A stretch of 51,827 bases of DNA from Saccoglossus kowalevskii. Its lineage: Eukaryota > Hemichordata > Enteropneusta > Harrimaniidae. Positions 44,301 through 50,300 of the stretch are shown one piece after another. The translations under genes and the position numbers were made by a program. The notes under the pieces are model-generated. The model was given only the letters and a program-made list of their open reading frames with translations, was not told the DNA's origin and did no database searches. How positions within the stretch are numbered: position 1 is the first letter of the stretch; the number at the start of each line of letters is the position of its first letter. The stretch spans positions 32,533 through 84,359 of the forward strand of contig NW_003123420.1 in the NCBI RefSeq assembly GCF_000003605.2, written 5' to 3'.

Positions 44301-47300
44301 AAGCCTGCAGTAAAGGTAACCAACAGAAGCAACAATAAAGGTGAGTACAATAGTCAATTATTTAAAAAGTTTATAAAGACTTAATGTGTTCATTTAAAGC
44401 ATTAAGCACACAAATAAACCCAACAGAATATTTTATTTTTGCTTGCGATTGATTTACGCTGTTTTCGTTGAAGGGTTTATTCAGTGAAAATAAAATCCAG
44501 CAAATATACTTTTTTTCCCTATATTTTACATTCCACACATCAACAATCAGTGAAAATAAACTCCATACAAAACACCCAACAAATCTTTTCAGTGAAAATT
44601 AATTCCAGCTAAATTTTTTTTTTTTTAACCAGTACTGGTATAGGTTTAATGAGAGACACCTGAGTTAATACAATGATGAATGCCATTAAGAAATACTAAA
44701 TCTCTAATTAATGAGAAACTGTATGCAAAAAACATTAATTTATTTTAAATCTATTGATATACCTCCTCCATTTAGACATGGAAAACTGCCATTTATTAAT
44801 TTTTTTCTGCCAAACTTTTTTTTTAAATTCCTCAATTTTTTTGTACTTTGCTTTTCCCCAGAAATGGACTTCTCAATGCAAGTGCAACCACTAATTTTCA
44901 AACTGAGTAAGACACAGCGAATACAAAAAAAATTAATAAATTTAAAGTTAATATTTTCTGTGAAATCTTTAGTAAAATTTGGAAATTACACACGACCACT
45001 TACAACATTGAATGACACTAAATATCAAAGTAGCTTTGTTGTTCCTCAATAAACTAAATGCTTTATTGACCCCGGCCAAGTAAATAAAATAATGTCATCT
45101 AATACACACTACTAGAAGTCACTGATATTTTACTATGTTTTTGCTAAGAGCAATATGCAGGCAATACTGGCTCATGTTACCATGGTTCCTAACACAAATT
45201 TGTTTTAGTTACATTATACAGTGCTAGCTGAATATAAGCATACTTTTTGATGGTGATACCCAAGTTCCCCAGTCATAGAAAAAAAACACTGTTTTATAAT
45301 GGTAGTACATGTATTAAATGACAAGCAGCATGTCAGCTGAGATAGCTCCGCTGTTAGCAATGCACATGGCAATTAAAGAACAGAAGATATCATTAGAAAA
45401 TGAACAAATCTGAGAGAGGTCCACATGTAGTACCTATATGTATAATATATCAAAGTAATTGGACTTGCGGTTTTCAACAAGAAGTCGAAAATATCACTTT
45501 TTACCAAAAATTACAAAAATATTCATCAAAATTAGAGAATTGAAGATATCATTACAAAATGAACAAATCTGAGAGAGGTCCACATGTAGTACCTATATAT
45601 GTAATATCAAAGCAATTGGACTTGCGGTTTTCAACAAGAAGTCGAAAATATCACTTTTTACCAAAAATTACAAAAATATTCATCAAAATTAGAGAATTGA
45701 AGATATCATTACAAAATGAACAAATCTGAGAGAGGTCCACATGTAGTACCTATATATGTAATATCAAAGCAATTGGACTTGCGGTTTTTAACAAGAAGTT
45801 GAAAATAACACTTTTTACCAAAAATGACAAAAATATTCACCAAAATTAGAGAATGAAATCAACAAATCTAAGAGAGGTCTACCCAAGGTACATATACACC
45901 AAGTATCAAAGCATTCAGGCTTGTAGTTTTCAAGAAGAAGTCGAAAAAGTAAAACATTGACACGGACGACCACGGACAATCACTCATATAATAGGCTCAG
46001 CTCGACAAAGTCGACAGTGGGGCTAAAAAAGGAAAAAGCTACACGACAAACAGTTAACTTTTAGAATTATACTTAGTCAGGCAAAAATTACATTTTCCAT
46101 GACACTTTACTATGACATTATAAGTATAGCATATCAATATGGCATCTGAATGTAGCATATATTCCAGCACAAGGCAGTGAATAAGTACAAAATTATGTAA
46201 ATCTAGAGAAAATGACTATTTTTATCTGTGCAATTCAGACTTATTTTAATCACTTCAAATCTCTTCCACAGGTGTGGTCTGGTTAATTTTCAAAGCAGAG
46301 TAATATTAGTAAGCCGAACTGAATGTGGTGAGCCAGACAGACCAGAATGTGGTGAGCCAGATAGACCAGAATGAGGTGAGCCAGACATCTATTTTTCGCA
46401 TCATGGAAGACACATTTCCACAATAAAACACCCTATGAATATACTCAGGGATTACAAAAATGCAGGGTATTATTTCCTGTCTATGTTAAAGATTAACTAG
46501 AATGTAAATTTACTCTGACTCAAAATTAAATTAAAACTTGCTATGCATAAGAGGAATGTCTGTAAGTATAATGTACATAATAAACTCAAGAAACATTCTT
46601 TTCTGAGAGGTATCAATTTATTACTGATTCAATATAGTCTTAATTGGTTATTAATTAAACCAAACACATTATGTTAATTATAAATAGTACTATGAATAGT
46701 TTTTAATTGGAAAGCTGAAAAGGTAAATGTATACAAATTAAAAAGCCAAAGCAAAATCACTTTTTAAACCAATTAAATTGTTTCAGGTCTATAATTTTAG
46801 TGTTCATTATTAATTTTAAATAATAAATAACCCCTCTGGGAACATAGTCGCAATATTTTACAGCAGATTTTATTTAACTATGTCATCTCAATCACCTGAC
46901 CAGCTTGCACCATACTAGGGTTTGTTCAAGTCATAAATACCAATTGCAAAAAGTGTTAAATTTTATTAATACATGTATATGCAATGTTTTCATAATTTTT
47001 CACTTTATACTAAACACACCAGTTGTCGCTATATAACTGCAGATCCTTGGCATTTTTTTTTCGTATCAGTCAAAAAAAATATGTTGGTTTTCAAAACTAC
47101 TGATCCTACACGACAGGGGTTGATTTCCAACACTTCTTGCAATCTTTATACTATTATGAGATGAGATATGCAAATAAATAAATTTTAAGAGTGATATGCC
47201 AAGTATGAGATGTTAGTAGTGAAGTACTTACATGAATCCTGATATGCCAAGTATGAGATGTTAGTAGTGAAGTACTTACATGAATCCTGATATGCCAAGT

Positions 47301-50300
47301 ATGAGATGTTCGTAGTGAAGTACTTACATGAATCCTGATATGCCAAGTATGAGATGTTCGTAGTGAAGTACTTACATGAATCCTGATATGCCAAGTATGA
47401 GATGTTCGTAGTGAAGTACTTACATGAATCCTGATTTGTTGTTCAACTGGTACATTGGCCTTAGCATTACCTAGAATGTAAGCTTCACCTCCTGTCTTCA
47501 CAAAAGTTGAAAAACTGAAGAAAAAAAACAAGAGAAAAAAGCTGATAATGACATGATGTCACACAATGTACCATCCTCATACTTGTGATAAATTGGGAGG
47601 AAATATCACAATGGGCACGTAAAGATAAATGTTACAATGTTCAACATTGAATGTCATTATTTTATGCAATTTGAAACAGTGTGCAAAGTACAACCATGTG
47701 ACGATGTCGTATTTACCACAGCAAAAAACAATTACTCACATGATTCAGCCAAAAGAATGAAATGACTCACCGACTAAATCCTTTTGGTTTGATAGTGGCT
47801 GTTTTGCTGTCTGTCCTTCTTGCAACACTATTGGTGCCAGTATCTGTTGGAGATCCAACTGCATGCTATAAATAAACATAAGTAAGGTGATTGCTTGCAT
47901 GTACGAGCATGAGGTTGGGTTTATGTTGATCATCAATGAAAAACCATTGGCAGACTTCGATGATTTTGATCAAATTATGCAATAACACAGCCAATGGTAA
48001 TACAATATGAGTATAGTATCTGTGTGCAAACTTTCAACTGAATCAGGCATTATATTGAGAAATCAACATGAATATAAACAAAATGACCACCAGTCGGCCA
48101 TTTTCAGTTGAATCTTGAAACAAATATGATGTGCACTTGTAACCCAATATGCATTATCCTGATACAAAATTCGAATAAAGTCGTTTAGCAAACTTCTATA
48201 CCAAAATGGCTACCAGTCAGCCATATTTTATCAAATAGTAATGAAAATTGGTGTACATATGTAAGTCATAATACATGGTCTTTGTGTTGATAATCTTGAA
48301 TAAAAACAGATGAATGAATGGACAGACAGAACCCAAATAAACCTCCACCTGAATTACAATCAAGAATATTAGAATCTCTGATAGGTGATAAAAAAACGGT
48401 ATCATTGGTCTGCGTCAATTTGAACAATTTGGTGTAACTTGATTTTGTAATTGACACACAGCTGAAGCTGATTACCAATTCGGTAACATCGGTTGTACTG
48501 GTAATATTCTTTCAAATTTTATGTTTAACAATCTGTGTAACAGCGGATGATAGTGTGATTTTGATGCATACAAACACATCATTCTCCAGTCATCAGGTGA
48601 CTTTGACAATGGCAGCATTCCTTAAGATTTGTGGAGATCAAACCAACCAAAAATTGTCACAAACATCTACTATAGATTGTAGTTACATAACATTAAACAT
48701 GTATTGCTAAAGTTTTTCAGTTTTAATACTGGCAAGCTCAAGTGTTTTGCACAAAGAATTATTATTCAGTTCAGTTCAGTCTTAGAAAAAAAGAAATCTT
48801 TGCATTTAACCTAAAGTAACATACTAGGCACAAGCAATGATATACTGGTTCCACATTTAAGACTCTGCTTTTTCACTCTTTCAGAATGTATAGAAATATG
48901 AATTTGATAAATAAATCCTCTAATGATAACTGGGGGATGACATCAGCAGTAACTTTTGAGTATCAAAAGATTAGATCCTCATGACTAGGATTGATACATT
49001 ACTCTGCCTGAATTCACTCAAGGTTGCTGACCCAAGAGAAAATATTTCTAGGTTATATATAATTATGATTTTTAAAATGTCTGCAATACTTACTTGTCCC
49101 CTGCCATCAGAGTATGTACTACTATCGTCATCATCCCAGTCATCTTCATCCCAATCATTATCGGGTGTACCACCATCGTACGTCTGTGAGTTCTGCCCAT
49201 CATACTGATCTGCTAGTGGTACTGGAAATGCTGGTGGAGGCGCTGATGGCGGTGGGTGTCCACTCGTTATTAACTATAACACAATAAGAAGTCGGTTACA
49301 GTCAAATTAACATTTGATCCATTCATTAATAGTCACCTTGACTGTTGAATTTATAGGCCCCATACTTTACATAGCAATATAATATGCATGTGATTACAAC
49401 ATCTACCTCTCTTACAACTTTTCTGAGAATTATTCGGACTGTCAGTTAGCTTGTAACTTTGCAAAACTCTTGGCTTTTGATTTGCTCACCATTTGTCTGA
49501 TAGCAAGCTGTGTGGGATTCACTATTTTTATAAAGAATGTTAACATAGAACTAAATTGGCTAATCTATAGTTCCTATTCAATAACTTTCCGTCATTTCTT
49601 GAGTATCGATATCTACGATGTATGTGATTCAAGAAATATTAAAACACTTCAAAAAAACCTGTTCATGTATTCAAATGAACGTAGTATAACAAAATGTGTC
49701 AATGAAACGGCTCCGTCAATTCTAAATTGAACAAAAAACAAAGTGTTTTGCAAAAGTTGCATGCCATCTTGCTAACAGACATTTCAAAATGATTCTGAGA
49801 ATGGATGTGAAACCACGATAATCAGATTATACAAATATGCGAGTCATTGAAATGTGCAACATTCCACGGCATCCCATCACTATCAGTGACAGTAGCCAAG
49901 GAACAAATAAAGATCAACATTTACATATAATTAATTATCAACGTGCACAAATCATTGAAATTGAGAATGTAATGAGTTATACTATTAGAAACAGATAACA
50001 TACCCTGTTCCACTTAGACTACATAAACATAAAAATGAAACTAATAGGTAACCTCATTGTTATATATTCATTCTTTCCGTTCCCTATTTCATTCATCTAC
50101 AAATTAAATCCTACAAACATGTTCTCCAACTACTAGTAAGTTGAAAAAATTCTATTCATAAGCTACCGTAATCTTGTTATTGTCCAAACAACTATACATT
50201 AGCATATTTTCTTAATTTCCAACTAACCATCACAAATCACAAAGGTGACAATATAACTTATAAATATTGACAGAAAAAGCATCTATATTTTTTTGCAGGC

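Follow-up and report, generated by a model that had tools for sequence, protein, structure and literature searches.

The minisatellite of human IFI6 (6-16), which has a 12-bp unit in ~26 copies, begins near an exon end, keeps the reading frame and adds a few residues to a protein whose shortest form is the 130-residue one; the 31-bp VNTR of human CBS also affects splicing. The IFI6 repeat supplies multiple splice donors, according to the title of the original report (Turri, Cuin & Porter 1995, NAR 23:1854), and the accessible text of another account describes two downstream repeat units that serve as donors, giving three mRNA species among which the 130-aa form is predominant (PMC4526556). The CBS VNTR, c.1444_1467+7(16_21), spans an exon-intron boundary, as its name indicates, and the available text gives it as polymorphic, with 16–21 copies (PMC2630376). 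The same text describes CBS 844ins68, a duplicated intron 7/exon 8 junction at which one of two sites is strongly preferred; the sites are called donors there, whereas the title of the cited work (Romano 2002) refers to 3′ splice-site choice. Tandem donors a few bases apart, as treated in the accessible part of PMC2423196, are of another kind than the array described here, and the available text of PMC4329672 and PMC12958757 contains nothing on splice-donor arrays of this type.

The array analysed here lies in a sorting nexin gene of the SNX9/18/33 family, on the minus strand of a 51,827-nt stretch of Saccoglossus kowalevskii DNA (the window, to which all coordinates refer). The 13 coding exons found for this gene (37392..50544 (-)), which encode an SH3 domain, a linker, a PX domain and a BAR domain, join through GT-AG borders into an open frame of 535 aa without a start codon. 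A run of N, either a gap or a withheld stretch, follows directly after the window end (L010:361-3000, read to base 3000); this is the place in which to seek the gene's first exon. The SH3, PX and WASP-binding BAR domains occur in that order, with PF10456 and PF00787 above the Pfam cut-off, an arrangement common to the SNX9/SNX18/SNX33 family; the PDB relatives of the gene product are SNX33 (4akv) and SNX9 (2rai). Among the 120 listed of 1,287 protein matches, the top relative is an SNX33-like protein from another enteropneust, Glandiceps talaboti (68% identity, 100% query cover), and with 68% as the best value none of those listed is at or near 100% identity.

The exon in which the array starts (47424..47514 (-), 91 nt) ends in phase 0 with ..VEQQIRIH, and the next exon (43143..43268 (-)) has the acceptor ttcgtttctag at 43268. 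The intervening intron (43269..47423 (-), 4155 nt) is the longest of the gene's 12 introns found in the window; if it were retained, translation would reach a stop at 47156. The same intron contains a second tandem array (45371-45854, 157 bp x 3.1, 95% matches) and a 24-bp array of 2.8 copies (46321-46387), and elsewhere in the window, at 14196-14354, the dinucleotide AT is repeated 79.5 times.

TRF places the array at 47192-47435 (period 48, 5.1 copies, 99% matches) with a score of 474; 20 order-1 Markov shuffles of the window reached 64 at best. With the register set by the 12 exonic bases of the exon end, the array comprises five 48-bp units on the minus strand (units 1 to 5: 47388-47435, 47340-47387, 47292-47339, 47244-47291 and 47196-47243) and a four-base partial unit, ATCA (47192-47195). 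The unit reads ATCAGGATTCAT, then GTAAGTACTTCACTAC, then G or T, then AACATCTCATACTTGGCAT, with the exon/intron border of copy 1 between the first two elements, such that copy 1 opens with the last 12 bases of the exon and continues with 36 intronic ones. Pairwise comparison reveals no differences among copies 1–3, none between copies 4 and 5, and one base between the two sets (CGAAC in copies 1–3, CTAAC in copies 4–5). Each unit carries CAGGATTCAT/GTAAGTACTT, i.e. the exon end followed by the donor, and all five occurrences of GTAAGTACTT in the window, both strands counted together, are inside the array. An earlier note on this DNA had claimed five near-perfect 48-bp copies, each with exon end and donor, which TRF and the unit comparison bear out; the location it gave, 47193-47432, requires a shift of three bases (47196-47435 in register). 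Copies 4 and 5 hold the branch-point-like motif TACTAAC (47212-47266), which we also take to be QKI/STAR-like, and copies 1–3 read TACGAAC.

At its edges the array reads AACAA/ATCAGG (upstream) and GGCAT/ATCACT (downstream). Since ATCA is common to both, this single sequence suggests that the array arose in place, by slippage or microhomology-mediated duplication. A 48-bp stretch covering the exon end and the intron start would have been duplicated where it stood, probably through slippage involving two ATCA tetramers spaced 48 bp apart, and the duplicated unit would then have expanded to five copies, so that a single 5′ splice site became five of the same local sequence. A mobile-element or dispersed origin of the 48-bp unit is not supported: in a search that skips very common words, the array sequence was found at a single place in its own 572-Mb assembly.

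Like arrays of the IFI6 kind, this one starts where a coding exon ends and carries that exon's 5′ splice site in several copies. Donor 1 (47414..47423 (-), CAT/GTAAGTACTT) yields the conserved protein; donors 2 (47366..47375 (-)), 3 (47318..47327 (-)), 4 (47270..47279 (-)) and 5 (47222..47231 (-)) would add 16, 32, 48 and 64 aa, respectively, and the exon ending at donor 5 would be 283 nt long. Because the five are identical from −12 to +16 they score alike, as they would in any local model, at 8.70 with a weight matrix by which the gene's 12 donors span 4.66–12.86. Further along the same intron, past the first in-frame stop, CAGGTGATT at 46895 scores 8.76 by this matrix, compared with 8.70 for the array donors.

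The later donors also keep the reading frame, with a period of 48 and no stop before 47156: read on from the exon, the frame crosses the whole array and meets its first stop at this position, 267 nt past donor 1, and in the gene's remaining 11 introns an in-frame stop is reached within 1–120 nt. The earlier proposals that exons 47424-47514 and 43143-43268 are joined in phase 0, and that the stop-free array has the potential to add 16, 32, 48 or 64 aa, hold on both counts, the coding sequence through this join being open. Of the remaining two frames of the array, one is likewise open, and the other is interrupted by a stop in each unit. When 48-mers are taken from the introns of this gene itself, the chance that a given frame is open is ~0.33; combined with a length divisible by 3 (one third), the probability is ~0.11, so the open frame of the array is no sign of selection.

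Joining donor 1 to the acceptor at 43268 leaves 23 residues between the motifs GGEA and GPMW. This spacing is 22–25 residues in 118 of the 120 homologues listed out of 1,287, the exceptions being 10 and 29; the longest is thus 29, compared with 23 in this gene, and none of the 120 carries an insert of 16, 32, 48 or 64 residues, or any of at least 16, at this place. Since its spacing fits that of the homologues, none of which has an insert, donor 1 can be taken as the ancestral site and is most likely the main one. Judged from the aligned proteins, the conserved spacing argues that inserts are disfavoured, and against insert-bearing forms as the main product. A protein search using exons 3–5 plus the 64-aa insert as the query gave no matches among 7,590 candidates, with low power, as plain SNX fragments might have been expected and were absent too. 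We favour an account, with a probability of roughly 0.55, in which the unit was duplicated in place, donor 1, adjoining the true exon, would account for most of the mRNA and for the conserved protein, and the four in-frame later donors are probably minor sites that would give low-level isoforms with 16n extra residues.

The exon junction corresponds to residue 176 and thus precedes the Pfam match to PX (215–295) by 39 residues. The insert site had been assigned in the earlier note to the start of the PX domain, which is inexact relative to the Pfam match; in a model of the Glandiceps relative, the junction falls in the strand leading into the PX fold. In this AlphaFold2 model (protein P0001; 38 of the 120 listed proteins in its alignment; mean pLDDT 84.4), the junction, after V182, is within strand 179–184, which is preceded by loop 166–178. 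Each unit encodes IRIH, so that the 12 residues around the junction are intact in every isoform. With IRIH thus supplied anew by every unit, the extra peptide would in effect lie in loop 166–178, the junction strand being kept, and inserts may accordingly be accommodated. A virtual isoform with 64 additional residues gives Pfam scores of 80.8 bits for PX (from 81.2) and 296.8 bits for BAR (from 297.2), near-unchanged values that say only that the two domains are not cut by the insert. An extension of this idea is a length dial, by which alleles of n copies would produce SNX33-like isoforms with 0, 16, ... 16(n−1) extra residues in the pre-PX loop, foldable via IRIH, and allele length would shift the isoform mix between individuals; we regard it as doubtful.

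The element AAGTACTT is its own reverse complement, and the donors could consequently pair with one another. The predicted fold of the array RNA has a z of +1.10 relative to shuffles, and 177 of 200 shuffles equal or surpass it; no pair probability between copies exceeds 0.252, and the mean unpaired probability of the five donors is similar (0.25–0.29). As its folding is thus not superior to that of shuffled sequence, the array shows no special masking of one donor, and with the donors equally unpaired, masking of some of them by RNA structure was rejected.

Zero use of donors 2–5 is quite possible, and the array could then be a neutral intronic minisatellite that starts in the exon by chance, with donor 1 alone ever used. 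We consider this unlikely, though deserving of serious weight. The spacing that 118 of the 120 homologues listed keep is consistent with it, as is the outcome of the low-power search for an insert-bearing protein; the identity of the donors from −12 to +16 works in the other direction, since full discrimination among them would need more distant signals, and human IFI6 is said, in the accessible text of PMC4526556, to use downstream repeat donors. Repeats with GTAAGT are matched widely in the assembly: three GTAAGT at 34–64 bp steps give 12,658 matches (6,489 forward and 6,169 reverse), many of the first ones, which were those listed, overlapping within one array; the reversed control pattern, however, has more matches (17,198 + 17,182 = 34,380), so GTAAGT-bearing repeats are not enriched for donors. 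Arrays comparable to the present one are not everywhere: for a period of at least 20, at least 3 copies and at least 85% matches, none was found in 93,330 sampled non-N bases (20 stretches of 10 kb from two contigs, 16 of C3354 and 4 of C1608, with L010 and L011 left out), and two were found in the window.

Where donors are equally strong, splicing can favour the one that lies nearer to the 3′ splice site, and 283 nt, the length of the exon ending at donor 5, is an ordinary exon size. Both points suit a reading in which the donor of copy 5, nearest the 3′ splice site, wins and the main protein carries the 64-aa insert. This reading is improbable, as 64 residues would be inserted where 118 of 120 listed homologues vary by 3; in addition, it is the 130-aa form that predominates in IFI6, in the available text of PMC4526556.

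The near-identity of the 48-bp copies and the many runs of N in the assembly, gaps or withheld stretches, raise the question of whether the copy number is an artefact of collapse or expansion. Such an artefact is quite improbable, given that the 244-bp array is short enough for single reads of common length to span, that copies 4–5 differ from copies 1–3, so that at least two kinds of unit are present, and that the array is at one place in the assembly. Cryptic introns within the array, which would use CAG/GATTCAT at the four unit junctions as 3′ splice sites, remove 41, 89, 137 or 185 nt and leave a 7-nt remainder, with a frameshift and lower expression, are very improbable: TACTAAC at 47266 would offer a branch A at a distance of 22 nt from the downstream AG at 47239 (CAG of copy 5), but copies 1–3 have TACGAAC instead, TACTAAC is no rarity (13 in the window, 7 minus and 6 plus), the pyrimidine stretch is weak by inspection, and animal introns are seldom anywhere near as short as 41 nt.

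If the later donors of the array are used, the locus would allow the effect of position alone on the spliceosome's choice between equal 5′ splice sites to be tested cleanly, and would be an invertebrate case of a minisatellite altering protein length via splicing; for the present, it is a neat though unsurprising consequence of slippage at the edge of an exon. The description as a potential in-frame donor array at the end of an SNX9-family exon is sound; use of the later donors is putative, and so is the variation in copy number between individuals that the earlier note had suggested, the analysis covering one assembly with the array at one place in it. The idea of a donor array is not new, since, on the texts available, human IFI6 has been a precedent since 1995 and the CBS VNTR is alike in placement.

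The likeness to IFI6 consists in a minisatellite supplying several donors, which is known here from genomic anatomy and reading frame, and for IFI6 from use in RNA as given in the accessible accounts. In contrast to the 12-bp unit and ~26 copies of IFI6, the array described here has a 48-bp unit in five copies, each worth 16 residues, and belongs to a sorting nexin gene from an invertebrate deuterostome. The 31-bp VNTR of CBS similarly combines an exon end with the beginning of an intron in its unit (24 + 7 bases, as its name indicates) and so forms a donor array. However, 31 is not divisible by 3, and its downstream donors would shift the frame, whereas a period of 48 stays in frame; the CBS unit is also mostly exonic by the same name, and that of the sorting nexin mostly intronic (12 + 36). 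CBS 844ins68, as described in the available text, shares a duplicated splice junction, but is a single duplication compared with the five copies here. What is new is such an anatomy in another gene and another lineage, alike to the known systems in anatomy and frame only.
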